Assembly (NCBI GenBank): GCA_937889595.1
Contig: CALAOR010000068.1
Span: 1 to 38,516 of the forward strand
DNA length: 38,516 nt
Reading direction: 5' to 3'
From: an uncultured bacterium
GTDB taxonomy: Bacteria > Oederibacteriota > PGYV01 > Palsa-1178
Shown: one piece after another, positions 4,129 to 34,037 of the stretch
Layout: every line of letters starts with the position of its first letter
Position numbering within the stretch: the stretch's first letter is position 1
Made by a program: the position numbers and the translations under genes
The notes under the pieces: model-generated
Seen by the model: the letters and a program-made list of their open reading frames with translations, nothing else
Database searches by the model: none
What the model was told of the DNA's origin: nothing

Positions 4129-6648
4129 TTAAACACCTCTCTCGGCAAGGTTAATTACCGTTTTCCAATAGTCTTGTGTTATTTTATATTCATTTTCGCG
4201 TATTGGTATATCTTTGTTCGTATCTGATGTGGCTATCCAGTATGCAACCCTATCAGCACGGACCTGTACAAGGTTCTTTTCGTTACCACACATATAAAAA
4301 GCTTCCGAATATAAGCCCTTTACCTGTTTGAGCGTGGTAATTATGCCCATTTCATTTTCATTAAGCCTGTAAAGTTCTTTTATTAACGGAAGATCCTCCG
4401 AACTTTGATGAAAAAGCGTTTTTGTTGGAGCTGATGTAAGGACCTTCTTTGCCTCCTCGTTACATAAAAAATCACTTAGCTGTTGTGTCGCTATGATAGA
4501 AGCAAGGCCCAAATGACGGCTTCTTTTCCCAAGGTCGAGCAGAAAGTTCTGCCCGCCTGAAAATCTGGCCAGAAACCAAGCCTCATCAATTACCAACAGT
4601 TGTCTTTTTTGTAATTTTTTATTGATTTTAAAACGCTGCATTGAAAAATTTGATATTATGTAAATGCCCAGGGAAAGGATATCATCCCTGTTGGCCGGTA
4701 ACCCGGATATATCAAATACGACAAAGGAACTTTTCAGTTCAATGTTGCTCGGCCGATCGAGCATACCCGCAAAAGAACCTTCTCCAATGAAAGGACTGAA
4801 TTTTTCTTTGATATCAAGCAATTGCTCTTTGTGTTTCTGTGATTCTATTGTTTCAATAAATTCATCAATAACCACCAAAATATCCCTTAAAAGAGGTATT
4901 GTCTTCCTGTCAATAATTTTATTACCCGTTTTATCTATTATGAATTTAAGTTTATTTTTGTACATTTTACGGACCATTTTTTCCGCAAGCCCGGATTCCA
5001 CCTTACTTAACCTTGACACTCCTTCTTCGGAAAGAATAATGTCAAATAACCCGGTTATATAAGCAATTTTATTTGGGGTAGGATCGCCTTTAACCGTGAT
5101 GTCATTTTCGTCACCGTGTTCGTTAATAAGCGCCGGGTCATAATCAATACAGTCGAAGGGATTGTAACTGCAGGTACCGTCAAGTGATAGTGTTATGTAT
5201 TGTCCGTCATTACACTTACAGTTATATTCATATGATTTGGATTTGTCAATTATGATCACTTCCGGCCGCCATGGAGCAATTCTAGTCAATATAAGATTGA
5301 TAAAAAATGATTTACCCGAGCCTGGCCGTCCTACAATTATATGATTGTTATTCTCAACAGCTGGATTATAGGGTCCATAAAACACAGATTTACCTGTTAA
5401 ACTTGTTCCTATATAAACACCGGCATCTACTTTTTTGACTTCAAAATTAAAAGCCGGCATTAGGTATGAAAGATTGCCGTCTGTACGATCCCCCGGACTC
5501 CCTGTAATTGTAAGGTAATAATGTCCGGCCGTGTTGTGACATAAAGGAAGCGTAGAAAGAAATAATTTCTTTTGTTCAAAAATTCCAGGATAATGTGTAC
5601 AGCCCTCAATAATACTTTCAAACTCCGGTATTAATTCCTCAAAAGCATCCCGATTTTCATGTCTAAAACTCAAGTAGCAGGCAAATTCAATAAATTTAAT
5701 TTCACGTCTTGCCTGAGCCGATAATAATATCTCAGTATTATCAGCAATTGCCCTATTGTCAATATCGGTTTGTTTTTCACTTGTTCCCAGGGCAAGTTTT
5801 AATTTATTAGTCAATTGTTCTTTAATTTCGTGCTGTGATATACCGCGAACAAATAAAGACAACGTGGAATAATTATTTATAAGAAACAATTCCTGCAAAA
5901 AATTGGGTTGTGAAGGTATGTCAGCAATATAAAAAGTTTTTACGTGTTGTTCTCCAATCATGCCCATGGCATTTTCTTCACTGAAAGGGGTCCTTATCAA
6001 TGAACTTTTTAACGTATTAAACGATTGTCTTAAGTGGTCTACCGGTATTTTTCCTGTTTGTTCTGGATTAAATGCCTTATCGAGCATGTCCTTGATCTGT
6101 TGTTCGGTCATTTCAACTACTTCAACACCCGATATCTGCCCCATAAAGCCCACAAAGCCCCTGCTTCTGTTTGAAATATTGCGCCTTAACGTTGCCGTAT
6201 CTTTTTTAATTTCTGTCGATTTTATTGTTTTAGTAAACAGGTTGGTTTGTTTTCTGTATGTAAAAAGGATATAAATATTTTGTTCGCAAATTCTCTCACT
6301 GCGAACAAAGTCAGTAATGAACTGATCAAGTATATTGGGATAATAATTTTGAAATTCAGGAACCGGGTGGTTTTTAATAATTCTTTCGTTATATTTAAAA
6401 ATATCCGGTTCAGGATCATACTTTTCGGTTTGAATTACAATTTGTACTTCTTCACCGGCTTTTAAAGTATTTAACGCATTTCTAAAACTCAAAGTAGCCT
6501 GGTCAAGTTGGGCTTCGGCGGCTGTAAGGGTATTAATACCACCGTTTAGCTTAAAGCATATTATTGGAGTATCACTTTCGTCAATAATATAGCCATCTCC
6601 AAAATCTTTAAAATTAATTAAATCCTGAAAAGCTAAATTTTCATTCAT
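4129..6648 (-). CDS. virB4: VirB4/TraC-family conjugation ATPase
   Basis: 839 aa. An N-terminal VirB4/CagE-type region is followed by a RecA-like ATPase domain with Walker A GRPGSGKSF (residues 440-448) and Walker B LLVIDEAWFL (Asp688, Glu689). A DISGL strand and the ATQQLSDFL segment typical of the family are also present. The protein powers assembly and function of the type IV secretion channel at the inner membrane. Its start overlaps the end of the VirB3-like gene (ATGA), and its stop abuts the VirB8-like start, so the three are translated as one block. The length is normal for the family and the key residues are intact. Confidence 0.95.
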   Translation of the reverse strand: MNENLAFQDLINFKDFGDGYIIDESDTPIICFKLNGGINTLTAAEAQLDQATLSFRNALNTLKAGEEVQIVIQTEKYDPEPDIFKYNERIIKNHPVPEFQNYYPNILDQFITDFVRSERICEQNIYILFTYRKQTNLFTKTIKSTEIKKDTATLRRNISNRSRGFVGFMGQISGVEVVEMTEQQIKDMLDKAFNPEQTGKIPVDHLRQSFNTLKSSLIRTPFSEENAMGMIGEQHVKTFYIADIPSQPNFLQELFLINNYSTLSLFVRGISQHEIKEQLTNKLKLALGTSEKQTDIDNRAIADNTEILLSAQARREIKFIEFACYLSFRHENRDAFEELIPEFESIIEGCTHYPGIFEQKKLFLSTLPLCHNTAGHYYLTITGSPGDRTDGNLSYLMPAFNFEVKKVDAGVYIGTSLTGKSVFYGPYNPAVENNNHIIVGRPGSGKSFFINLILTRIAPWRPEVIIIDKSKSYEYNCKCNDGQYITLSLDGTCSYNPFDCIDYDPALINEHGDENDITVKGDPTPNKIAYITGLFDIILSEEGVSRLSKVESGLAEKMVRKMYKNKLKFIIDKTGNKIIDRKTIPLLRDILVVIDEFIETIESQKHKEQLLDIKEKFSPFIGEGSFAGMLDRPSNIELKSSFVVFDISGLPANRDDILSLGIYIISNFSMQRFKINKKLQKRQLLVIDEAWFLARFSGGQNFLLDLGKRSRHLGLASIIATQQLSDFLCNEEAKKVLTSAPTKTLFHQSSEDLPLIKELYRLNENEMGIITTLKQVKGLYSEAFYMCGNEKNLVQVRADRVAYWIATSDTNKDIPIRENEYKITQDYWKTVINLAERGV

Positions 6649-14090: not shown

Positions 14091-14321
14091 GCCCTTTCAC
14101 ATGCGCGCGAGTTACAACAGATACATACATTGCCAACGTCATGACTTACGTAGTCACAATCTACACCTGCGCGCGAGTTGCAACTCTCGTTATAATTTAA
14201 ACGTTATATATTTAGGTCTTTGTCACAATCCGTACCGACGCGCGAGTTGCAACTACTTTCAACGGTGTGGAATGTACCATAAGCTATCTGTCACAATCCG
14301 TACCGACGCGCGAGTTGCAAC
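14087..14321 (-). CRISPR. short CRISPR-like array: four repeats, three spacers
   Basis: The 32-nt repeat occupies 14290-14321 and 14222-14253 (identical), 14153-14184 (degenerate centre) and 14087-14118 (mostly its last 14 bases). On the minus strand it begins GTTGCAACTCGCGCG and ends GGATTGTGAC. The spacers are 36 nt (14254-14289), 37 nt (14185-14221) and 34 nt (14119-14152). Decay of the leftmost repeats implies the leader is on the right, beside the nuclease gene, giving minus-strand transcription. The 36-nt spacer matches 34801-34836 in this element at 31 of 36 bases. No cas1 or cas2 is visible. Iterons are the main alternative, but the regular unique spacers and the match argue against that. 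Confidence 0.77.
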
Positions 14322-14322
14322 T

Positions 14323-14376: not shown

Positions 14377-15705
14377 CTACCCAGTTTGGACTTTTTGTTT
14401 GACGTTTCGTTGACTGCCCTTAAAAGCGCTAATCTCCACGTCCGTTAATTTGGCGGTGTGCCCGCCTATTATCTCTATGTGCTGTCTAAGACCGATGTTT
14501 TTGATATTAATTGCCGCGTTCTCATCACGGTCTAAGACCGCTCCGCAGCTGCTACACGTCCATGACCTATCACGTAATGTCAGTTCCGCGTTCTTGTGGC
14601 CACAATGACAACAAATTTTGCTTGTCGGCGCGAACCTGTTTATCTGGATCAAGTTGACCCCGTACCAATTGCACTTATATTTAAGCTTGTTTATAAAACT
14701 TGTCCAAGACACGTCCGATATTGATTTTGCGAGCTTATGGTTCGCGAGCATACCCTTTACGTTAAGGTTCTCAACCACAATCGTCCGCACTTGGTTATCA
14801 TGCGTAAGTTTGTAACTGAGGTTATGTGCAAAGTTTTCGCGAACCCGTACAATCTTTTCATGGAGCCGGGCAATCTTCCTTTTCTGTGCTAAAAATCTGT
14901 TACTTTTGACTGACCCTTTCAACATACCCTTACGTCTTGCTAAGGTTTGTTGTAACCGATGAAATTTCTTTTCATACTTTTTAAGTGTTTTAGGATTTTT
15001 AATTTTTTCCCCGGTGCTTAACGCGATCATATCAATAAGGCCGAGGTCAAGTCCGATTGTCTTGGCCGGAGTTATTTTTGATACTGACAATGGCTTGTCC
15101 AGCGTGTCAACCATTATGCTGACATAATACTCGCCGCTCTTTGTCCTGGACACGGTGAGGTTGCGGATCTGACCCGTAAAATGTCGGGATAATATTACTT
15201 TGATAGGCGTGTCAATACGCGGTAGTGTGATTGTGTGTGTCTGCCAGTTCACGTATTGGCGAGTATGTGTGCTCTCATATGTCCGATAACTTTGCTTGTT
15301 GCCGTGCTTTTTTTTGCGCTGCGGAAATCCCGCGTCCTTGCCTGTAACACCTTTTTTCAATCTTGTAAAAAAATTTTTGTAAGCTGTTTGCAGATCGCCC
15401 AGGGATTGTACAAGCGCCATGGCCTCGATTTCATTAAGCCAGGGCACTTCCGGGTTCTTTTTAAATTGTGTTAGTTCATTTGATAATTTGTAAGCATTAA
15501 ATTTAGGCCGGAGTTTTTTGTACTGTACTTCCGTCATTTCCCCGGATTCAAGTTTTGGTTTAAATTCCTTTTCAAAGTCCTCATACGCCTTATTGGATTT
15601 AGCAAGCGCCCAGTTATAGATATAACGACATGAACCAATAGTTTTATTGATCTGTGTTGCTTGATCTTCTGTTGGGTACAGCCTGTATTTAAAAGCTTTA
15701 AGCAT
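14377..15705 (-). CDS. TnpB/Cas12-like RuvC nuclease beside the array
   Basis: 442 aa from the ATG at 15705; GGGAG lies eight bases upstream, and the longer reading from 15765 has no such site. It starts MLKAFKYRLYPTEDQ, as in IS200/IS605 TnpB. The RuvC centre is intact: Asp in TIGLDLGLIDMIAL, Glu in IVVENLNVKGML, Asp in LDRDENAAINI. A zinc finger, CCHCGHKN then CSSCG, lies between the last two. TnpB proteins are RNA-guided DNA nucleases and the ancestors of Cas12. No TnpA gene or IS605-type end is evident here. A CRISPR-like array begins 56 bp past the stop, so this may be a type V-U-like effector rather than a transposon gene. By sequence alone it reads as a normal TnpB. Confidence 0.85.
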   Translation of the reverse strand: MLKAFKYRLYPTEDQATQINKTIGSCRYIYNWALAKSNKAYEDFEKEFKPKLESGEMTEVQYKKLRPKFNAYKLSNELTQFKKNPEVPWLNEIEAMALVQSLGDLQTAYKNFFTRLKKGVTGKDAGFPQRKKKHGNKQSYRTYESTHTRQYVNWQTHTITLPRIDTPIKVILSRHFTGQIRNLTVSRTKSGEYYVSIMVDTLDKPLSVSKITPAKTIGLDLGLIDMIALSTGEKIKNPKTLKKYEKKFHRLQQTLARRKGMLKGSVKSNRFLAQKRKIARLHEKIVRVRENFAHNLSYKLTHDNQVRTIVVENLNVKGMLANHKLAKSISDVSWTSFINKLKYKCNWYGVNLIQINRFAPTSKICCHCGHKNAELTLRDRSWTCSSCGAVLDRDENAAINIKNIGLRQHIEIIGGHTAKLTDVEISAFKGSQRNVKQKVQTG

Positions 15706-16192
15706 TTGTTGCTCCCTTACTATCTTGTCAAACACTTTACAATATAAAACCTCAAAAGTCAACAACTATTTGTTAGCCTCATGGGGATTATTTAAGACAT
15801 TAAAGCGTATTACTTTTCTTACTTTTCCGTTTACGGTCAGGACCTTATGGGATTGGCCCGCACACAAGACGGAAATTACCTACTTTATAATTGTACAACA
15901 AAAACATTGTTTTAACCATACAATTTATCTAAACATTATTTAGCCTGTTAAGGCTGTTTAGTTTGTTTCATAAAAACGCCATGGCTTGGTTCAGGGGAAC
16001 CCCCTGCTTTTTAGGGGGGAGGACCCCTATATACTTTCTCGGTTCGAGTTTTTTCACATTTAGGTTGCGTTTGGTCTTGCCGGGAGCTAATTTTATCTTT
16101 AAATAAAATTGAAGCCCCCGGACAAGTGGTTTACTGGCGAGTGACACTCTCGATCAGTGCCAATTCCAAAAACATAAACTCAAATCCTTATA
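15706..16192. other. non-coding region with hairpins
   Basis: No convincing gene. It holds a small palindrome CAGGGGAACCCCCTG near 15993, and a longer imperfect hairpin near 16080-16125 (CCGGGAGCTAATTTTAT paired with ATAAAATTGAAGCCCCCGG). At 16136-16144, GCGAGTGAC is complementary to nine bases of the candidate small RNA at 16445. Any promoter for the nuclease gene should be here, but I see none that is close to consensus. Confidence 0.4.
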
Positions 16193-18194: not shown

Positions 18195-18240
18195 TTACCA
18201 GTTTTTCGTACTTTGTTTTAATTACTGTTTTTTCAGCCAT
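18097..18240 (-). CDS. short frame with strong ribosome-binding site, probably the 5' part of the next gene
   Basis: 47 aa (MAEKTVIKTKYEKLVNEIIW, ending GNIGSFILPS). AGAGGGGG lies seven bases before the ATG, and the start overlaps the end of the preceding gene by 19 bases. The first ~28 residues look like a normal helical protein while the end looks out of frame. Together with the overlapping frame below it this suggests one disrupted gene. Confidence 0.45.
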   Translation of the reverse strand: MAEKTVIKTKYEKLVNEIIWDNWEKTELDKTGGCSILGNIGSFILPS

Positions 18241-18470
18241 ATTAATGCCCCCTCTTCGTATAATTTGAATAGTTTTTTTATGTTATGTTTAATAACAAAC
18301 AATCTTAAGTCTTTGAAGGTGTTGACTGTTTCAAGTTCTTTATCCATGGCCGCCAATATTTCGCTTTCTCCATTGTCTGCGGCTTCATAATGAATGCTTG
18401 TAAATAAATCAGAAATTCTTTTCTTTACGGCTTGTAACTTGTGCTTAATTGTCTTTCTTTTAACTGACAT
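18222..18470 (-). CDS. small helical protein behind structured leader copy 1
   Basis: 82 aa from the ATG at 18470, set by AGGAGG seven bases upstream; the longer frame to 18530 runs into the structured leader. The product (MSVKRKTIKHKLQAVKKRIS) is basic at the start and helical throughout. No family is recognised. It is the first gene after the ~358-bp structured repeat, in the same position as the 37-aa gene after the second copy. Confidence 0.6.
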   Translation of the reverse strand: MSVKRKTIKHKLQAVKKRISDLFTSIHYEAADNGESEILAAMDKELETVNTFKDLRLFVIKHNIKKLFKLYEEGALIWLKKQ

Positions 18471-18472
18471 TC

Positions 18473-18829
18473 TTAAACCTCCTGTTATTGTTTTAAAACC
18501 CGCCAATGAACTCGTCCAAATCGCGTACATTCTGTACCGATTTGGGCGAGTTCATACTTAGCGGCAGGCGGAAAAGGTTATATACTCGTGGGCAAGGTAT
18601 AAAAATTATTTGCGGGTTTAATGGCGCGGAGCTCGCTGGCGAGGCCGTGACAGGCAAATTATTTTTATACCTTGCCTGTCAACTCATCATTAACCGAGCG
18701 GAAAAGTATGATCAGGCTTTTAAGCGACAGCAATAACCCGGCCGGAGCCGGGATTATTGCCGAGCGCCGCAACCGTCGCTTTTCCGGGATAATGATGGCA
18801 TCAGAACTTTTTCCGCCTGCCGTGCCTTT
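18473..18829 (-). repeat. ~358-bp structured leader repeat, copy 1
   Basis: Nearly identical to 21361-21719, and like it ends with AACAAT-ACAGGAGGTTTAA just before a small gene. It is rich in nested inverted repeats: a 48-nt hairpin at 18507-18554; a 22-nt arm at 18591-18612 pairing with 18655-18676; arms GGCAGGCGGAAAA and TTTTTCCGCCTGCC near the two ends; and AATAACCCGGC/GCCGGGATTATT inside. Two base pairs of the 48-nt hairpin differ between copies in a compensated way, which points to selection on the fold. It could be a regulatory 5' leader RNA or a single-stranded DNA site. Confidence 0.8.
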
Positions 18830-19116
18830 TTTTTGCTTCATACAATGCGTTTTAAGGTCCTTAAAAAAGTCGTCTAAGGGATTCCAAAGGGTATTAGCTA
18901 CCCTTTGGTTGCGGGATTCTCAAGGGGCACAACTGCCCCTTGAGTGATTTTGTCCAGGTCAAGAACAACGGCGCGCTGATGTGCGGGCCTGGTATACCGG
19001 CCCGCGCGGACGTGCGCCGGTATAATGCCGCAACCCGGACGAGGACTCAACAAAGGGCTATATGTCCGGGTTGCGGCCGCGCCCTGGCTCTTTACAAGGG
19101 CGCGCCGGCCGTTCCT
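18830..19116 (-). other. non-coding, dense in strong hairpins
   Basis: No gene. At least five hairpins follow one another: CCAAAGGGTA/TACCCTTTGG, CTCAAGGGGCA/TGCCCCTTGAG, GCGGGCC/GGCCCGC, a 14-bp stem GCCGCAACCCGGAC/GTCCGGGTTGCGGC (near 19027-19077), and GCGCCCT/AGGGCGC. The GC content is far above that of the flanking genes. It continues the structured leader of the gene at 18470 and follows the stop of the 60-aa gene at 19117. Confidence 0.65.
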
Positions 19117-19299
19117 TTACATTCTTGAAACTGCAATAATATTTTCGGGCTTTACCTCTATTGAAAAATTATAAAGACTGAAAATAACTATCCTGTCGGG
19201 TCTGTCTTTTGATATTCTGATTTCGTTTATGTCATATTTTTGGATTTCTCCGTCCTGTTCAATATCTATAATCATTTTTGTTCTTCTTGGTCTTTGCAT
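19117..19299 (-). CDS. small beta-rich protein of unknown function
   Basis: 60 aa (MQRPRRTKMIIDIEQDGEIQ, ending EVKPENIIAVSRM). AAGGAG precedes the ATG at a good distance, and a hairpin of the GGGC-GGGG type sits just upstream. The sequence alternates hydrophobic and charged residues as in a small barrel. No family is recognised. Confidence 0.6.
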   Translation of the reverse strand: MQRPRRTKMIIDIEQDGEIQKYDINEIRISKDRPDRIVIFSLYNFSIEVKPENIIAVSRM

Positions 19300-19312
19300 T
19301 TTTAATACTCCT

Positions 19313-19345
19313 TTTCGGGCAGGGGGAATTAATCCCCCGCCCTGT
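19313..19345 (-). promoter_or_regulatory. hairpin directly before a ribosome-binding site, copy 1
   Basis: On the minus strand ATCACAGGGCGGGGGATTAAT, then TCCCCCTGCCC, followed by GAAAAGGAG. The same arrangement with altered stem bases lies at 20434-20462. It may tune stability or translation of the next gene. Confidence 0.55.
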
Positions 19346-19349
19346 GATT

Positions 19350-19559
19350 TTATCTTCTCTTTAGTTCACGGCTTGTAATTCTCTTGATTATTGCGATTAA
19401 TTTATCCGTGCCGTTCAATGAAATGAATTGAGGGCTTAAATTATCGGTCTTTTTTATTATCTCTTTTGCTAATTCCTTTCTTCCCGCAAACCGTCCACGC
19501 CTGAACGCTCCTCTTTCCGTGTCCGCTATATCTCCGCGCGTATAATCATATCCGTCCAT
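19350..19559 (-). CDS. small basic protein of unknown function
   Basis: 69 aa (MDGYDYTRGDIADTERGAFR, then GRKELAKEIIKKTDNLSPQF). Basic and likely helical. It is part of the run of short genes between RadC and the structured leader. No family is recognised. Confidence 0.55.
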   Translation of the reverse strand: MDGYDYTRGDIADTERGAFRRGRFAGRKELAKEIIKKTDNLSPQFISLNGTDKLIAIIKRITSRELKRR

Positions 19560-19569
19560 ATCTCCCCCC

Positions 19570-20151
19570 CTATTCCACGTTGTCGATTGATTCCGTTATT
19601 TTATGCCCCTGCTCGATGATATTTTTTAACCATCCTTCCAAAAAACTGTTTAATGATTTTTTTAACTGTGGTCTAACCCTGATTTTATCCCCTTTGATGT
19701 CATAGTCATAAACCACGTTAAAAACCATTGAATTTTGAAAGGTCAAGGCCTCAACAGTTTTATTTTCCAAGTCAATAGCAAGTTCCATGTCGGGGTCAGG
19801 TACGATATCCCCATTCATTACAAAATTGTGCGCCATGGATATTACAAAGCCAGTTTCTTCACGCCTTATAATATCCACACTTAAAGCCATATAAGGCTCT
19901 TTAGTTAATTTAAGGTATTGTTTCTTCTTGATTTCCTCAAGGACGCAACCAAAAATCCTTTCAAGCCGTGCATAATTACGGTGAAAAACATCCTTGCTTT
20001 TTAACTGTTGCATTCTCAAAAGTGCTTTTTTGGCTTCGTCAAACATGATAATTAATTCCTTGTTTAGTTCTTCCTTTTTCTGCGGGTCTGTTTCTGTTTC
20101 AAGAGCCTTTTTGATTTCCTCGTACCTGTCGCCGATTGATTTTATTTCCAT
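19570..20151 (-). CDS. hypothetical protein with helical N-terminus and beta-rich C-terminus
   Basis: 193 aa. Residues 1-60 are charged helix (EEIKKALETETDPQKKEELN), while the middle and end look beta-rich (MALSVDIIRREETGFVISMA, EALTFQNSMVFNVVYDYD). It overlaps the 90-aa gene by ten bases and is therefore probably coupled to it. I recognise no family or catalytic motif. Confidence 0.65.
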   Translation of the reverse strand: MEIKSIGDRYEEIKKALETETDPQKKEELNKELIIMFDEAKKALLRMQQLKSKDVFHRNYARLERIFGCVLEEIKKKQYLKLTKEPYMALSVDIIRREETGFVISMAHNFVMNGDIVPDPDMELAIDLENKTVEALTFQNSMVFNVVYDYDIKGDKIRVRPQLKKSLNSFLEGWLKNIIEQGHKITESIDNVE

Positions 20152-20414
20152 TCTGTTTTTACCTCCGCTTTAATTGCATAAGCATATTTTATACTTGTGC
20201 CGTCTGTGCCCCTGTCTATGTAGTCGGGATGTGCAATAAATATTTTCCTTTTATCCTCTTTACGGATTGAAAAACTTAAAAGGTCATTTCCATAAAGTTC
20301 TTCCATGCCGTTAAAATCTGCATTTGTGCAATCTTCAAGGTTCTTAAATTCTCCCCACGTGTAAAAAGCCACTTTAAAATCTTTTACAGTTGCCGTTACT
20401 GTGATTTTTTTCAT
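20142..20414 (-). CDS. hypothetical protein, 90 aa
   Basis: MKKITVTATVKDFKVAFYTW at the start and a central GMEELYGNDLLSFSIRKEDK. It is likely a small alpha/beta protein. GGAG follows the upstream hairpin and precedes the ATG. It is co-transcribed with radC. The function is unknown. Confidence 0.65.
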   Translation of the reverse strand: MKKITVTATVKDFKVAFYTWGEFKNLEDCTNADFNGMEELYGNDLLSFSIRKEDKRKIFIAHPDYIDRGTDGTSIKYAYAIKAEVKTEWK

Positions 20415-20433
20415 TTGTCTTGCTCCTTTTCGG

Positions 20434-20462
20434 GCAGGGGTTAAGCCCCTGCCCTATGATTT
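20434..20462 (-). promoter_or_regulatory. hairpin directly before a ribosome-binding site, copy 2
   Basis: On the minus strand ATCATAGGGCAGGGGCTTAA, then CCCCTGCCC, followed by GAAAAGGAG. The flanks are identical to the copy at 19313-19345, while the stem length and loop differ. Confidence 0.55.
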
Positions 20463-21092
20463 TTATAGTTCCTGATTTTCTAACAATGAGCGATATGTAC
20501 CGTTGTATCTTTCCATTAATCCCTCTTCATAAAATGAAAAGTACCCTTTGCCCTCCTGACCTATAATAATATGGTCAAGCAAGGTGATATCCACTTCTTT
20601 AGTAGCAAAAAGAAGTTTTCTTGTTACTTTTCTGTCGTTCTCGCTCGGGGCAGGGTCACCGCTCGGGTGATTGTGAATTATTACAATTGATAAAGCGCCT
20701 TTATCAATACACGCCTTTATTATTTCCCTCACATATAAAATGCTCTGCGTGATTGTTCCCTCACATAAAAGCATATTGTCAAAAATCTTGTTTTTTGCGT
20801 TTAAAAATATTGCGTGTACAGTTTCCCTTTTGAGGTCATAAGCAACATTTTTAAAATGTGCGATTATGTCCGCCTGTGATGAAGCATTGAATTTTTTGCC
20901 TATAAACTTATTTTTCGTGTACGCTTCGGAAAAGCTTTTCAAGGTGTTTATAAACCCTTTTTCCTGTTCTGACAGGGTCGGTAATAATAAGACCTGTTTC
21001 AAATTTCGGTAATCGTATTTTGTGATTTTCTCCGCAAGTCCTTTCTTTAAAAACGGTTTAAATTCCTCAAAGTGAAAGTAAAAGTTTTTCAT
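20463..21092 (-). CDS. radC: RadC-family JAB/MPN domain protein
   Basis: 209 aa. The metal-binding JAMM-type motif is intact: HNHPSGDPAPSENDRKVTRK in the centre, followed by LLDHIIIG. RadC-like proteins are common on plasmids, phages and islands, and chromosomal RadC was once linked to DNA repair; the true activity is unsettled, with a protease or nuclease-like role suggested. The N-terminal ~80 residues lack the usual helix-hairpin-helix. AGGAG lies before the ATG, which follows the 53-aa gene by a few bases. Confidence 0.88.
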   Translation of the reverse strand: MKNFYFHFEEFKPFLKKGLAEKITKYDYRNLKQVLLLPTLSEQEKGFINTLKSFSEAYTKNKFIGKKFNASSQADIIAHFKNVAYDLKRETVHAIFLNAKNKIFDNMLLCEGTITQSILYVREIIKACIDKGALSIVIIHNHPSGDPAPSENDRKVTRKLLFATKEVDITLLDHIIIGQEGKGYFSFYEEGLMERYNGTYRSLLENQEL

Positions 21093-21095
21093 TGT

Positions 21096-21257
21096 TTAGT
21101 TACTCCTTTTTAATGCTTTTATAACTTCTTCAATAATAATTATATTTATTGTGTCTATTGATTCTTGAATTTGCTGTTTCCTGAATAAATCCGTTTCTCT
21201 TTTGAGTTCTTTTTGCAAAATCTCTTGATTGATTTTTAACGCTTTAATTCTTTTCAT
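21096..21257 (-). CDS. small helical protein upstream of radC
   Basis: 53 aa (MKRIKALKINQEILQKELKR, ending EEVIKALKRSN), probably one long amphipathic helix. It overlaps the previous gene by 14 bases and has no ribosome-binding site of its own, so translation is likely coupled. No family is recognised. Confidence 0.55.
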   Translation of the reverse strand: MKRIKALKINQEILQKELKRETDLFRKQQIQESIDTINIIIIEEVIKALKRSN

Positions 21258-21357
21258 TGGTTAACCCCTGCGCTTTTTTCTGCGCTTTCTTTTCCAGTTT
21301 TATTAACATTTTAATCATGCTGTAAATATTCTTACCCTTAACCGCTTCTTTTAACAT
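21244..21357 (-). CDS. very small basic protein behind structured leader copy 2
   Basis: 37 aa (MLKEAVKGKNIYSMIKMLIK, then LEKKAQKKAQ). AGGAGG lies before the ATG, exactly as in the gene behind leader copy 1. Short and helical, it may be a leader peptide for the radC operon or a small functional protein. Confidence 0.5.
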   Translation of the reverse strand: MLKEAVKGKNIYSMIKMLIKLEKKAQKKAQGLTNEKN

Positions 21358-21360
21358 TGT

Positions 21361-21719
21361 TTAAACCTCCTGTAATTGTTTTAAAACCCGCCATTGAACT
21401 CGTCCAACACGCGTACATTCTGTACCGTGTTGGGCGAGTTCAATTCTGAAACGGCAGGCGGAAAAGGTTATATACTCGTGGGCAAGGTATAAAAATTATT
21501 TGTGGGTTTAATGGCGCGGAGCTCGCTGGCGAGGCCGTGACAGGCAAATTATTTTTATACCTTGCCTGTCAACTCATCATTAACCGAGCGGAAAAGTATG
21601 ATCAGGCTTTTAAGCGACAGCAATAACCCGGCCGGAGCCGGGATTATTGCCGAGCGCCGCAACCGTCGCTTTTCCGGGATAATGATGGCATCAAAACTTT
21701 TTCCGCCTGCCGTGCCTTT
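21361..21719 (-). repeat. ~358-bp structured leader repeat, copy 2
   Basis: Second copy of 18473-18829. The hairpin at 21395-21442 has arm bases AACACG/CGTGTT where copy 1 has AAATCG/CGATTT, so two pairs are swapped and pairing is kept. Most other differences are single and lie outside stems or make G-T pairs. It stands immediately before the first gene of the radC operon. The segment between the two copies, about 2.5 kb, is flanked by direct repeats and could be amplified or lost by recombination. Confidence 0.8.
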
Positions 21720-21837
21720 GACCTACTCAAACATCGGTCTATAAAAAACAGCGAAGCGAATAAGGATTCATAAGGAAATTATTTCCTTATGTCGGGGGAT
21801 CCAGGGGGTTGAAAACCCCCTGGGTTTATGAATTTTT

Positions 21838-21958
21838 CCCCGCGGCCACGGGGCCTTTGAAACTTTCCCGGTTGTCCGCAGGACAGCCGATGTCTTTTGC
21901 AGACGACCGCAGGGCGGCTGATGTAGTACGCGATCGGCGGTAGGCGATCGATGTCTTC
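21838..21958. repeat. multi-hairpin module, copy 1
   Basis: Order of parts: a GC hairpin (CCCCG/CGGGG), then CCTTTGAAACTTT, a hairpin GGTTGTCC-GCA-GGACAGCC, GATGTCTTTTGCAGA, a hairpin around CCGC/GCGG, GATGT, and a hairpin CGATCG/CGATCG followed by GATGTCTT. The linkers recur at 22753-22853 and 23331-23453 while the stems change. The upstream bases 21720-21837 hold two more strong stems (AAGGAAAT/ATTTCCTT and CCAGGGGGTT/AACCCCCTGG). Confidence 0.7.
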
Positions 21959-21960
21959 AA

Positions 21961-22700
21961 CAGCCGGGGACTACAGGTTCTTCCCCGGCTGTAAAACTCC
22001 GTGCCTTATACGGCGCGTCTACTACGCCGCATGCTCTTATGAGGCGGCCATGAGAGCCGCCGAATACTTCAACAGCCGGGGACTATAGGTACTTCCCCGG
22101 CTGTAAAACTCCGTGCCTTATGCGGCGTGTCTACTTACGCCGCATGCTCTTATGAGGCGGCCATGAGAGCCGCCGAATACTTCAACAGCCGGGGACTACA
22201 GGTTCTTCCCCGGCTGTAAACTCCGTGCCTTATGCGGCGTGGTCCACTTACGCCGCATGCTCTTATGAGGCGGCCATGAAAGCCGCCGAATACTTCAACA
22301 GCCGGGGACTACAGGTTCTTCCCCGGCTGTAAACTCCGTGCCTTATGCGGCGTGGTCCACTTACGCCGCATGCTCTTATGAGGCGGCCATGAAAGCCGCC
22401 GAATACTTCAACAGCCGGGGACTACAGGTTCTTCCCCGGCTGTAAACTCCGTGCCTTATGCGGCGTGGTCCACTTACGCCGCATGCTCTTATGAGGCGGC
22501 CATGAAAGCCGCCGAATACTTCAACAGCCGGGGACTACAGGTTCTTCCCCGGCTGTAAAACTCCGTGCCTTATGCGGCGTGGTCCACATACGCCGCATGC
22601 TCTTATGAGACGGCCACATGAGCCGCCGAATACTTCAACAGCCGGGGACTACAGGTTCTTCCCCGGCTGTAAAACTCCGTGCTTTATGCGGCGCATGCCG
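21961..22700. repeat. seven-fold ~113-bp tandem repeat made of three hairpins
   Basis: Units begin at 21961, 22073, 22186, 22299, 22412, 22525 and 22639, with spacings of 112-114. Each unit has three stems: CAGCCGGGGA/TCCCCGGCTG, ATGCGGCGT/ACGCCGCAT and GGCGGC/GCCGCC. Units 3-6 are almost identical and the outer ones diverge; the last unit is incomplete. No reading frame runs through the unit and 113 is not a multiple of three, so it is not a protein repeat. A diverged relative with a different stem (CAGTGGGA/TCCCACTG) follows at about 22709-22734. Confidence 0.85.
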
Positions 22701-22752
22701 CATGTTTCAACAGTGGGAATATAAGGGCTCCCACTGTGCTTTAATAATTTTG

Positions 22753-22970: not shown

Positions 22971-23094
22971 TTAAGGACCTGCCTCTTTAGCGGACACTTC
23001 AAAAATGAAAGCACTAATCATTTTTGCAAGTGTACGCTGGGTGGGTGGGATTATCATATCGTTTTTACCCCTGCCTATAATACTCGGTTCACCT

Positions 23095-23228
23095 TGACAG
23101 CCCCTTAAAATGAAAAGACGAAGAGCCGAGAGAGCCGCGTGGGAATCGAACCCACTATCGTTAGGTGCCAACCCAACTATCGCTCCAGCGAAACGGCTCT
23201 TCGTGAAAACTTTATGAAGGGGCTGTCA
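23095..23228 (-). tRNA. tRNA-like sequence inside an inverted repeat
   Basis: On the minus strand, acceptor arms AGAGCCG (23200-23194) and CGGCTCT (23137-23131) pair, and the T arm GTGGG-TTCGATT-CCCAC (23155-23139) is perfect. The D region (CGCTGGAGCG) is too short for a normal D arm, and the anticodon-like stem GTTGGG/CCTAAC has a six-base loop (TTGGCA), so it is not a standard tRNA and no CCA follows. It is flanked by TGACAGCCCCTT and AAGGGGCTGTCA. A second copy of CGGCTCT follows the first. It may be a decayed tRNA, an integration scar or a tRNA mimic. Confidence 0.5.
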
Positions 23229-23330
23229 CCGATAGGGCGGAACACCGTGGAGCAGGTAAACCTTAATTTATCAAGCAGGGGGAAAAACAATACCTTAGAG
23301 GGCATTAGCTGTGTCGTAAAAAGTCTTTGC

Positions 23331-23640: not shown

Positions 23641-23754
23641 AAAAAATTACATTCATCAACAAACAATAACTTTTCTAAATCTTTTATTTGTTTAATTTAT
23701 TTGTATTTTTAAATAAATTCCTGAAATCACTATTACTTTATAGGTTCTTTCAAA

Positions 23755-23771
23755 AGTCCAACCGTTGGACT
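23755..23771 (-). terminator. hairpin terminator, left of the long inverted repeat
   Basis: AGTCCAA-CCG-TTGGACT, followed on the minus strand by TTTTG. The identical 17-bp hairpin recurs at 24121-24137 with a T-run in the other direction, so the pair closes off about 370 bp on both sides. Confidence 0.55.
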
Positions 23772-23874
23772 ATTGTCATATAATCCTTTATTTACAGCTA
23801 TTTTTTAAGTACCATACCGCTTATAACAAAATCTCTAAACACAACTTCTTTATGAGATATTATAAAATAATAGC

Positions 23875-23945
23875 GAATGCCTTGTTTCTGTACCGTTCTG
23901 TCCTGCTTTGTTCTGTTCTGTCCCGTCTCGTTCTTTGTTCTTTAA
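23875..23945. repeat. short degenerate CTGTTCTG-type repeats
   Basis: The plus strand runs through several variants of TGTTCTGTCC and CTGTCCTGC with no purines beyond G at fixed spacing, about every 10-11 bases. It could be a binding-site cluster or simple sequence. It adjoins the long inverted repeat. Confidence 0.35.
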
Positions 23946-24108
23946 CTTACCTATTTTACATACCCCCCTCATTCACATTCTGAGTAGTAAACCACCAAAA
24001 TCTATCAACATCTAAAGTTACACCTAGATGCTGATAGATTTTGGTGGTTTACTCGAGGCTCAGAATGTAGCGATTATGAGGGGGGTATGTAAGCTTAAAA
24101 TAGGTAAG
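23946..24108. repeat. 163-bp near-perfect long inverted repeat
   Basis: The left arm starts CTTACCTATTTTA and the right arm ends TAAAATAGGTAAG. Between them pair CATACCCCCCTCAT/ATGAGGGGGGTATG, ACATTCTGAG/CTCAGAATGT and AGTAAACCACCAAAATCTAT with its complement, leaving a loop of about ten bases near 24015-24024. Small internal loops interrupt the stem. No gene is inside. It could be a MITE-like insertion, a single-strand replication origin or a transfer-related site. Confidence 0.85.
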
Positions 24109-24120
24109 TTACTACCTATT

Positions 24121-24142
24121 AGTCCAACCGTTGGACTTTTTT
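24121..24142 (+). terminator. hairpin terminator, right of the long inverted repeat
   Basis: AGTCCAA-CCG-TTGGACT followed by TTTTTT on the plus strand, a good intrinsic terminator, though no plus-strand gene precedes it. It also lies just beyond the stop of the minus-strand gene at 24166. Confidence 0.6.
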
Positions 24143-28761: not shown

Positions 28762-29109
28762 CAGTAAACTTAAATACGTTATTGGTTTTATGCTCCTGGG
28801 CCGGATAATTTTCACACTTACCTTAAAAACACGTTCTTAACGCCCTTTTAACGGTTTTAACGGTTATTAGCTACATATTCCCTTAATTATAGGTAAAAAT
28901 CAAATCCAGGGCCCATACAGGCTTAAATTATTGGGTTTGGTGGTCTTGTCGGATGGTCATTTTATGTATGTGAAAATTCTCGTTTAAAATCGTTTTCTAA
29001 CGTAAGGTCTAACGTTCTTATTTATACCCTTTAGATCTAAATCGTTACTACGTTAAGCGCAGTTCTAAAAATAAAAAAGCTTATTTTTAAGATAAAAAAT
29101 AGAATTTAT
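28762..29109. other. AT-rich region between par promoter and iterons
   Basis: No gene. It has many TAACG and AACGTT motifs (for example TAACGGTTTTAACGGTTA near 28847-28865, and CTAACGTAAGGTCTAACGTT near 28997-29016) and an AT-rich stretch with AAAAATAA/TTATTTTT at 29067-29090. These are plausible centromere and DNA-melting elements of the replication origin. Confidence 0.45.
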
Positions 29110-29260
29110 GCATGTAACAGTACGGTAAACGCACGTAAGACTACGGTATATGCACGTAAGATTACGGTATCGGTGCACGCAAAACTACGGTATAACGCAT
29201 GTAAGCCTACGGTATAAATGCACGTAGAACTACGGTATATGCACGTAGGGGTACGGTATT
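29110..29260. repeat. oriV: seven iterons, probable origin of replication
   Basis: Direct repeats of the form GCACGTAAGACTACGGTAT start at 29110, 29131, 29152, 29175, 29197, 29220 and 29241, so every 21-23 bases, two helical turns. The ends GCAYG and TACGGTA are fixed and the middle varies. Such iterons bind Rep initiators of theta-replicating plasmids. They lie just beyond the 3' end of the rep gene rather than before it, next to an AT-rich stretch. Confidence 0.88.
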
Positions 29261-29273
29261 AAAAATAAGGGGG

Positions 29274-30383
29274 TTATGCACGGGCCAAGGAAAATGAAAT
29301 ATATTCCATGGTGTTCTTTTTTATAATTTCAAATTGTTTTAAATAGCCGGTTGATTGTAATTCTTCAAGCGCATTTTTCATATTATGTTTTATGTTACGA
29401 GTAACCTTAACACTCATTCCAACCTGTTGTGCAAAAGATAACAGCATAAATTCATAATGTATTTTTTTTGTTTTTTGGCGTTCTTTTTGTAAAATTTCAT
29501 AAATGCGTTTTGAAACTGAAAATCTTAATGAAATATAAAAATCCCAATCTAAAATAGCAGAATAATATAATCTCATATTATCAGCTATATATTGACTTAG
29601 AACAATTTCGTTTTTGAACATTTCCATTGATTCTGCACTATTACTTTTGCTCCCAATTATTTCTTTACTTTGAATAAGACGTATTTCAGCAAAAACATCA
29701 GAGTTATTTAAAAATATTTTATCTTTAAATTTTAAATAAGCATCCTTAGTACTTATTTTGCTGTCAAATATGTACTGTAAAGCGTTATTAATCATTTTAT
29801 AATTTTCTCCACCGTCTGATATGTTCAGGTGCTTGCATATTTCATAATTTGAATAATGAACCTTATTGTTCGTTGGCATGCCGCTGTCTTGAAAAATTTT
29901 TAAAATAACCTTAAAAACATCCGCGTCCTGGTCATTTGGGATTAAGCTGTTTGAGTCTACCCGCCATTCGGATTTTACGATGTTACCGGTTATATCATTT
30001 TTATGTTCTTTGGAATATACAATCGGTTCATTAGATCGCTTTCCTTGCCTATAAAAGGCATAGTCAACTAGGTTGTTATCAATGCGAGCAATGTCCATGG
30101 TGTTTTTATGAATATTAATTTCCTTACTTATTAAGTTATGTAAATAACCGGCAGGATTGAATATGCTGTCTCTATTTTCGTTACGTTCTGATTCTCTTAG
30201 TTCTTTCCTCCAACGAAAAACAATATCTATAAGTGCCTGTTCTTTATTTTGTTTTAAAGCCGCTTTAAAATATGTTATCCAATAACCTTTATCTTTTTCA
30301 AAATGGGCTTCTCCAAGTTCTTCAATAACCTGTTCTTTTATTGTTTCAAATTTTAAATCATCCTCAATAGGATTATATGACAT
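29274..30383 (-). CDS. rep: plasmid replication initiator protein
   Basis: 369 aa. The central part (SEWRVDSNSLIPNDQDADVF, then VILKIFQDSG) and the C-terminal ISLRFSVSKRIYEILQKERQ followed by QQVGMS fit the winged-helix initiators of the RepA/TrfA-like group. I name the group from overall pattern, not a single motif. The call is supported by seven iterons directly downstream and the par genes beyond. It would bind the iterons to open the origin. Its start overlaps the preceding gene by one base (TAATG). Confidence 0.8.
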   Translation of the reverse strand: MSYNPIEDDLKFETIKEQVIEELGEAHFEKDKGYWITYFKAALKQNKEQALIDIVFRWRKELRESERNENRDSIFNPAGYLHNLISKEINIHKNTMDIARIDNNLVDYAFYRQGKRSNEPIVYSKEHKNDITGNIVKSEWRVDSNSLIPNDQDADVFKVILKIFQDSGMPTNNKVHYSNYEICKHLNISDGGENYKMINNALQYIFDSKISTKDAYLKFKDKIFLNNSDVFAEIRLIQSKEIIGSKSNSAESMEMFKNEIVLSQYIADNMRLYYSAILDWDFYISLRFSVSKRIYEILQKERQKTKKIHYEFMLLSFAQQVGMSVKVTRNIKHNMKNALEELQSTGYLKQFEIIKKNTMEYISFSLARA

Positions 30384-31564: not shown

Positions 31565-31901
31565 TATTGATCTCCTGTAATTTTTCCGTAGTACTTACAA
31601 ATATATTTGTGTTTTTAATATTTTCACTTGTGATTAAGAATAAAATTATTGCAATAATTAAAATATAAGGGTTAAGAAAATATTCAATGGGAATTTTTAA
31701 TATAGCTTTTGGAACATTATCAGGATGTAATTGTCTTATAGTAAATAAAGCGGCAGAAAGAGGTGCATAAATAATTGACATTACACAAGCAATAAAATTA
31801 ATATTTATAAACCAATCTCTTCGACTCTGAAGTTTTCTATGTTCTTTTTGATTTTTCTTTCTTTCTTCTTGAGTTGTTTTTTTAATTGGTTCTTCGTTCA
31901 T
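31548..31901 (-). CDS. two-helix membrane protein with EPIKKTT head
   Basis: 117 aa. A charged N-terminus (EEPIKKTTQEERKKNQKEHR) is followed by two membrane helices, NFIACVMSIIYAPLSAALF and PYILIIAIILFLIT, and a polar tail. The N-terminal motif matches the C-terminus of the protein encoded at 30893. The start overlaps the NrdD-like gene (ATGA). The function is unknown. Confidence 0.6.
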   Translation of the reverse strand: MNEEPIKKTTQEERKKNQKEHRKLQSRRDWFININFIACVMSIIYAPLSAALFTIRQLHPDNVPKAILKIPIEYFLNPYILIIAIILFLITSENIKNTNIFVSTTEKLQEINNDKDR

Positions 31902-32086
31902 TTATTCACCTCCCTAGTATCGAACGTTACCCTGTCATGATATTCTTCGGTCTTGCCGGCGTTCCATTGTTTTAGTGGTCGAAAGTAGCCAACTATCCTA
32001 CTATATGTTTCGCAAGGCGTTCCCCGGACAACCCGCAGCCGCTCTTTCAAATCTTTAATCCGTTCTATGATCTCTTGCTTGTCCAT
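31898..32086 (-). CDS. stand-alone glycyl-radical tail like the NrdD C-terminus
   Basis: 62 aa. After a short helix (MDKQEIIERIKDLKERLRVV) comes PCETYSRIVGYFRPLKQWNA, then GKTEEYHDRVTFD. This closely follows the C-terminal end of anaerobic ribonucleotide reductase NrdD, where the glycine of R-(V/I)-x-GY carries the radical. Here only that tail exists, as a separate gene with its own GGAGGG site. A spare glycyl-radical domain, as YfiD/GrcA is for pyruvate formate-lyase, is the natural model: it could repair or modulate the host enzyme under low oxygen. The zinc-site cysteines of full NrdD are mostly missing. Function is inferred. Confidence 0.7.
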   Translation of the reverse strand: MDKQEIIERIKDLKERLRVVRGTPCETYSRIVGYFRPLKQWNAGKTEEYHDRVTFDTREVNK

Positions 32087-32271: not shown

Positions 32272-32282
32272 ATGTTTCCTAT

Positions 32283-32384
32283 CCTTTCTGGCCACAAGTG
32301 GCCACTTCTTCGATGTTTTCCCTGTTCCGGGTAATTTACAGGCCTTAAATCGGCTCCTGGTGATTCCCCGGATAGCGTCCTATG
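32283..32384 (-). repeat. ~100-bp gene leader repeat R1
   Basis: Differs from R2 (33010-33111) at only three positions. It contains the palindrome TGGCCACAAGTGGCCA just before the ribosome-binding site and a possible stem CCGGG/CCCGG enclosing CAGG/CCTG. It precedes the gene starting at 32271. Confidence 0.8.
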
Positions 32385-33000: not shown

Positions 33001-33009
33001 ACGTTACTT

Positions 33010-33111
33010 CCTTTCTGGCCACAAGTGGCCACTTCTGCGATGTTTTCCCTGTTCCGGGTAATTTACAGGTCTTAAATCGGCTCCTGGTGATTCCCCGGAT
33101 AGTGTCCTATG
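33010..33111 (-). repeat. ~100-bp gene leader repeat R2
   Basis: Second copy of the leader, immediately before the TPR gene start at 33000. It is nearly identical to R1, while the genes that follow differ after their first few codons. Confidence 0.8.
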
Positions 33112-33693: not shown

Positions 33694-33704
33694 TTGTTCT
33701 CTCT

Positions 33705-33795
33705 CCTGGCCACAAGTGGCTACTTCTTTGATGTTTTCCCTGTTCTGGACAACTTACAGGACTTAAACCGGCTCCCGGTGATTCTCCGGACACGT
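33705..33795 (-). repeat. ~100-bp gene leader repeat R3, diverged
   Basis: Third copy, before the VirB8-like gene at 33693. It keeps TGGCCACAAGTGGC, GATGTTTTCCCTGTTC and the CGGCTCC-GGTGATTC block but has about 20 differences from R1 and R2, several of which keep the possible stems. Confidence 0.7.
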
Positions 33796-33797
33796 TT

Positions 33798-34037
33798 TTA
33801 TCGGAAATGTCGTTTATAATTTGTGTAAGTATGTTTTAATGATTTTTTTTTAATTCCTACACTACCATATATATTATTGTTATAAATATCTCTTATATCA
33901 AATCCAAAAGTAATTGCTGTGAAAAAAGCTTGTGTTGAACGTATAATTATATAAATCCACATAAACATAAATGCCCATATTCCAAATGCTTTTTTGAATT
34001 TTTTGTATAATTTTTGTCTGTTTGTTTTTTTTATCAT
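33798..34037 (-). CDS. small membrane protein
   Basis: 79 aa from the ATG at 34037 (AGG upstream; an in-frame TTG at 34058 has no better site). It has a basic start (MIKKTNRQKLYKKFKKAFGI), one or two membrane helices (WAFMFMWIYIIIRSTQAFFT) and a basic end. The function is unknown. Confidence 0.55.
   Translation of the reverse strand: MIKKTNRQKLYKKFKKAFGIWAFMFMWIYIIIRSTQAFFTAITFGFDIRDIYNNNIYGSVGIKKKSLKHTYTNYKRHFR

Follow-up and report, generated by a model that had tools for sequence, protein, structure and literature searches.

The 38,516-nt contig CALAOR010000068.1, referred to here as the window, carries two near-identical non-coding elements, each lying directly ahead of a small gene on the minus strand, and the question raised by this locus is what such a repeated, highly structured element does for the DNA that carries it. 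Copy A (18473..18829) precedes an 82-aa open reading frame (ORF), and copy B (21361..21719) precedes a 37-aa ORF followed by RadC; both elements are read on the minus strand, described below as the leader sense. These are the coordinates given in the original prediction and they are right: the copies are 96.4% identical over 359 columns, and both finish in AGGAGGTTTAA with the ATG of the ORF a few bases later, also as predicted. Sequence comparisons presented below give good support to the view that the fold is conserved by selection in related plasmids. We put at about even the chance that this is an EGeRS1-like element, by which we mean a structured control region that is present in more than one copy per conjugative plasmid and abuts the ribosome-binding site (RBS) of establishment-type operons (RadC, ArdC-like).

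Each copy is predicted to consist of a three-way junction, made up of the closing stem P1 and the arms P2 and P3, followed by a separate hairpin of about 18 bp (P4) and an unpaired tail containing the RBS. In copy A, P1 spans 18561..18823 (arms 18805-18823 and 18561-18579), the P2 arm with its large, conserved internal loop 18685..18797, the A/T-rich stem of P3 18591..18676, P4 18506..18555, and the conserved tail with the AGGAGG RBS 18473..18505. The equivalent features of copy B, likewise on the minus strand, are P1 at 21451..21713 (arms 21695-21713 and 21451-21469), P2 at 21575..21687, P3 at 21481..21566, P4 at 21394..21443 and the tail at 21361..21393. The fold is very stable on either strand, with z between -9.6 and -11.4, and none of 100 dinucleotide shuffles was equally stable. 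P4 differs between the two copies at two adjacent base pairs, in both arms (AAATCG/CGATTT against AACACG/CGTGTT); this difference had been predicted, and a third pair at the base of the hairpin behaves in the same way (ATGAAC/GTTCAT against TTGAAC/GTTCAA). With two copies alone, a fold under selection looks the same as a palindrome in which one arm has been copied from the other, and relatives are therefore needed.

Relatives were sought in other genomes; the genome of the window, designated G000, is assigned to the candidate FCPU426 phylum by way of its relative G001. A blastn search of 98 genomes identified one copy, 80% identical, in G001, which belongs to the same genus. The original prediction had proposed a covariance-model search, and this was productive: model R1, covering the P2 arm (the R1/R3 region, 18684-18801 in copy A) and built from three sequences, matched three of 45 genomes of the phylum, namely G000, G001 and a new one, G003, from another genus (63 bits, E 8.4e-14). 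An independent model of P4 and the tail, R2, identified the same site in G003, in the correct order (52.5 bits, E 7.7e-11). Over a wider set, model R3 matched four of 384 genomes at E ≤ 0.01, and one of these four, a partial match in G276 (24.8 bits), was taken as chance. A blastn search of the elements over 199 loci found only G000, G001 and PMTB01000169.1, in which the element has the same position as in the G001 contig.

The genes around these homologues tie the element to plasmids. In G003 the element lies directly ahead of RadC on a contig with conserved gene order (ParA, ParB, coupling protein, Replic_Relax protein, hairpin-rich spacer, element, RadC, 317-aa protein), and its RadC is 57% identical to that of the window (20463..21092, minus strand; JAB domain, PF04002 E 4e-36), which lies in the operon behind copy B, as does the 37-aa ORF (about 21244-21357, minus strand, by eye). 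The operon behind copy A includes the 82-aa ORF (18222-18470, minus strand) and the gene of the 317-aa plasmid protein (17020..17973, minus strand), which is 47% identical in G003. The G001 copy is followed by a small ORF and then by an ArdC-like HExxH protein. Upstream of copy A there are two extra hairpins followed by AATCCC (18840..18944, minus strand); this layout, identified by eye, recurs with other letters upstream of copy B (about 21761-21830) and in G001. The elements had no match in known phages and only two short chance matches in known plasmids. In viral contigs, the matches listed for the pattern GCGACGGTTGCGGCG were unrelated GC-rich DNA, pattern AAAAGCCTGATCATACTTTT gave 0 matches, and none of 31 pattern stretches found for relatives of the 317-aa protein was confirmed; a gapped pattern gave 10 stretches and a 17-mer 57 in genome contigs.

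Two copies with inverted repeats could also be the ends of a transposon, or a miniature inverted-repeat transposable element, and the original prediction had named a transposon end as an observation that would overturn it. The distribution does not fit. The whole genome (93 contigs, 3.42 Mb) contains these two copies only, both plasmid-borne and both abutting an RBS, with none on other contigs; G001 and G003, where the element lies on short contigs, have a single copy each, again ahead of an RBS; and the TnpB gene of the window (14377-15765) is unlinked. We consider a transposon origin extremely unlikely.

The homologues covary, contrary to the other observation that had been named as refuting a conserved structure. 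With three sequences, both sides have changed in 13 of 119 pairs in the leader sense and in 12 of 117 in the antisense. When G003 was added in a structure-blind MAFFT alignment, 27 of 91 pairs had changed on both sides and were still paired, which is a low count because P1 of G003 is out of register in that alignment; with its arms set side by side, this stem has different letters in G003 and retains 18 pairs, all Watson-Crick. For the P2 arm, in a model-fitted alignment, compensation is seen in 14 of 44 pairs and 95.5% of 132 cells are paired, a result reached in none of 500 shuffles, and slid controls gave 0-4 pairs. As the 27 of 91 compensated pairs come from an alignment of sequence only, there is good support for selection on the fold, and the homologues bear out the prediction of a conserved structure in RNA or single-stranded DNA. 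Correction between palindrome arms, in which one arm is rewritten from the other when replication switches template, would produce perfect arms and paired changes with no function, and could account for adjacent P4 pairs changing together between copies that are 96% identical and for the near absence of G-U intermediates. However, it would not conserve loops, junctions and the RBS tail, nor maintain architecture and position across genera that share only 27% identity in their Replic_Relax proteins, and we regard it as very improbable.

What kind of element is it? No Rfam family matches the copies, and the covariance models of STAXI and of the radC motif (RF01754) gave no match to them at E ≤ 10. 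The STAXI and radC motifs resemble the element in being structured and in lying near antirestriction, Ssb or (by name) radC genes, and for STAXI both RNA and single-stranded DNA are discussed as the form in the text of PMC2864571 drawn on here; STAXI differs in consisting of tandem pseudoknots, another architecture (PMC2864571). The earlier statement that no known class fits thus holds for Rfam, but EGeRS1 of the pLS20 plasmids does fit, in both position and anatomy. As described in the parts of PMC8708921 used here, and as for all statements on EGeRS1 below, this element occurs in five copies of 420-751 bp on plasmids of the pLS20 family (Bacillus), has about 325 conserved nucleotides before the RBS, many inverted repeats and a four-branched fold, lies immediately ahead of the RBS in establishment operons, that of ardC among them, and has a GC content above that of its plasmid. 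No promoter was found in it, and readthrough is blocked in the native orientation only (PMC8708921). In the pLS20 region we found five copies at 93-100% identity to the ardC leader.

The likeness is considerable. Here too there are multiple near-identical copies per plasmid (two at 96%, and two at 81% in G030, described below), directly ahead of the RBS of establishment-type operons, with a very stable branched fold built from inverted repeats; the fold, the RBS-abutting position and the compensation are kept between genera; and the GC content of the four copies (0.45-0.49) exceeds that of the window (0.385). The differences are that the plasmids belong to different phyla, that the element here has a three-way junction plus a separate hairpin, with a conserved part of about 358 bp, and that the relaxase of pLS20 is MOBP whereas a Replic_Relax protein is present here. 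By analogy, the element most likely works like EGeRS1. If the pLS20 model applies, then the element, which would have no promoter of its own, would halt transcripts arriving from upstream while the plasmid is resident and double-stranded, in this orientation only, and the halted readthrough would leave the operon silent. After transfer the block would be bypassed briefly, and the products needed for protection and establishment of the plasmid would be made.

The same design occurs a second time in the phylum. G030, from another family, encodes a relative of the 317-aa protein, and its 7.5-kb contig with RadC and DUF932 has two non-coding leaders, 81% identical over 338 bp, ahead of two operons (RadC; DUF932). 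Each leader ends in a long hairpin and an RBS, with the first gene of an operon following, and the differences in the hairpin arms are paired; each plasmid thus has a pair of structured leaders, with one for each operon. The G030 leaders are unrelated in sequence to the element of the window, and the best R3 score on the contig, 15.1 bits, was too low to call a homologue; they are therefore either analogues or homologues that have diverged too far. On the same contig, L214 1033-1093 (minus strand) matches the Type-P1 twister ribozyme just under the cut-off (60.4 bits, E 2e-11).

The working form may be either a leader RNA or single-stranded DNA. The stems are almost pure Watson-Crick: G-U makes up only 6 of 302 paired cells in the leader sense, whereas RNase P RNA from the same three genomes has 43 of 342. 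Changes on both sides outnumber those on one side by 29 to 5, compared with 16 to 16 in RNase P RNA. Such scarcity of G-U is natural for a DNA fold, and palindrome correction would yield the same. The template strand also folds better than the leader strand, the antisense fold being the more stable in all six copies. An initial count of wobble pairs and the raw fold energies had seemed to favour the plus strand; with RNase P RNA as the control for strand preference, mononucleotide shuffles account for much of it, and a weak trend is left under dinucleotide shuffles (z of 1.46, 1.10, 2.11, -0.14, 0.89 and 1.29 for the six copies). Our verdict does not rest on strand preference. The pLS20 ardC leader has the same profile: of its 126 sense pairs 4 are G-U, and its fold in the antisense is the more stable by 21 kcal/mol, so that EGeRS1 and the element are alike in low G-U and in antisense stability as well as in being GC-rich relative to the plasmid.

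These observations bear on a more conventional explanation, that the element is a cis-regulatory RNA leader of the ordinary kind, which responds to a ligand or protein as a riboswitch does and has no connection with transfer. It has the position of a 5' untranslated region, the unpaired internal loop of P2 is conserved across genera, the P2 loop in the leader sense is UCCG in three of four copies, and an internal helix contains a compensated pair (C-G to A-U in leader-sense helix 3 of P2), all of which suit a leader RNA. We nevertheless think this improbable, given the absence of an Rfam match, the scarcity of G-U pairs and an antisense preference that composition explains only in part.

The alternative at the DNA level depends on which strand is transferred. 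The window looks like a conjugative plasmid on the basis of its genes (topoisomerase, TraG-type ATPase, coupling protein, Replic_Relax protein, ParA/ParB and RepA-type initiator); its ends show no overlap, and the plasmid sequence may therefore be incomplete. Next to the Replic_Relax gene, 23752-24140 contains nested inverted repeats and adjoining direct repeats of about 10 bp, recognized by eye, and a similar layout is found in G003 (L204 6048-6400). This is likely to be the origin of transfer (oriT); a search for an oriT across the RadC region, on its opposite flank, turned up no convincing candidate. We take PF13814 to correspond to MOBC. By eye, the sequence of the Replic_Relax protein resembles those of MOBC relaxases, which the parts of a review that we used describe as winged helix-turn-helix plus PD-(D/E)XK proteins (PMC12857230); its AlphaFold model, with a mean predicted local distance difference test score of 36, was unusable for this comparison. 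According to the same source, TraX of pAD1 binds direct repeats 70-120 bp from nic (PMC12857230). Should 23752-24140 be oriT, with the RadC side entering first, the strand transferred would be the non-template one, which agrees with pLS20 and not with Frpo.

This polarity matters for a promoter of the Frpo type, in which RNA polymerase binds the folded arms of the transferred strand and transcribes the operon before the second strand is made. The element resembles the Frpo and ssi regions of F and ColIb-P9 in being a repeated structured region before leading-region operons of a conjugative plasmid (PMC9849209, PMC11541004, both used in part), and its two near-identical copies ahead of establishment-type operons recall Frpo1 and Frpo2, which are 92% identical and about 5 kb apart (PMC9849209). 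The nearly pure Watson-Crick stems and the better-folding template strand point the same way. Unlike those regions, the fold here has no canonical -35/-10 and no sequence similarity to them or to known plasmids or phages: a TTGACA/TATAAT pair could not be reconstructed by eye in the stems, and a consensus promoter scan found no promoter-like minus-strand site within the copies. The likely oriT would also give the wrong strand if the RadC side leads, and on the same grounds, the nicked strand being the non-template strand, the pLS20 authors rejected a single-strand promoter for EGeRS1 (PMC8708921). An Frpo-like promoter is in our view unlikely. A single-stranded DNA structure with some other job, for example a site at which synthesis of the complementary strand begins (ssi/sso-like) or a hairpin of the transferred strand to which a protein binds, is less probable again. 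The G-U scarcity, the putative oriT nearby and several other large hairpins in the region would suit it, but a priming site would not need the tight, conserved junction with the RBS, and if the minus strand is the one transferred, synthesis of new DNA would proceed in the direction leading away from the genes.

We therefore return to the EGeRS1-like reading, against which several observations have to be set. A member of EGeRS1 would be expected to be more than 60% identical to the pLS20 sequence; the best blastn match of six elements to the pLS20 ardC leader has an E of 0.21, and R3 found no match in 18 kb of the pLS20 establishment region; since neither sequence nor model shows similarity to pLS20, we do not file the element as EGeRS1. 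The G-U scarcity is unusual for a leader acting at the RNA level, and the G030 leaders (GC 0.53-0.55) are not richer in GC than their contig (0.534). The establishment role of the RadC and ArdC genes here would follow from homology, and the ArdC assignment in G001 is below the cut-offs of Pfam and NCBIfam (ArdcN 18.2 bits, E 0.003). Finally, the function of EGeRS1 itself comes from one paper and an artificial promoter, and its mechanism is still open (PMC8708921), whereas the rapid, brief switch-on of establishment genes has been explained for Frpo-type promoters (PMC9849209) and, for p576 (EGeRS2), by repressor-controlled promoters (PMC8708921). More speculatively, and we think this doubtful, there may be a class of establishment switches that arose independently in several plasmid lineages, in which a single-stranded DNA fold formed during conjugation sets operon expression without a promoter in the fold or a leader RNA, with the near absence of G-U as its mark.

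The window and its relatives contain further features. Between copy B and the candidate oriT lie seven copies of a tandem unit of about 113 bp built of hairpins (21955-22701), three hairpin repeats of about 87 nt (at 21850, 22768 and 23343), and, at 23050-23270 (minus strand), a tRNA-like domain within a long nested hairpin, which is also present in L204 (about 4765-4994, minus strand). The two domains give weak tRNA-Sec matches under the cut-off (30.6 and 28.4 bits), and the roughly 450 non-coding bases around them are 73.5% identical between the genera, exceeding the genes. The RepA-type initiator gene (29274-30383) lies beside iteron-like direct repeats (29105-29259), a likely replication origin. 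The TnpB/Cas12f-like gene (14377-15765, minus strand) adjoins three repeats of about 33-41 nt, spaced by 69 and 68 nt (14145-14322), which resemble a very small CRISPR-type array. A 103-nt repeat occurs three times (32282-32384, 33009-33111 and 33700-33802), each near small genes, and is possibly a further set of leaders, and a 62-aa ORF (31901-32086) matches the C-terminal end of anaerobic ribonucleotide reductase (PF13597, E 6e-9). Among the literature matches listed for FCPU426 and plasmid, none, judged by title, is on these plasmids.

On the EGeRS1-like reading, these plasmids would add two more lineages with the EGeRS1 design, in an uncultured phylum, one of them with measured covariation, so that stems, loops and compensatory pairs are defined. 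The scarcity of G-U pairs together with the strand preference may also serve as a sequence test on other plasmids, to distinguish RNA leaders from DNA structures.

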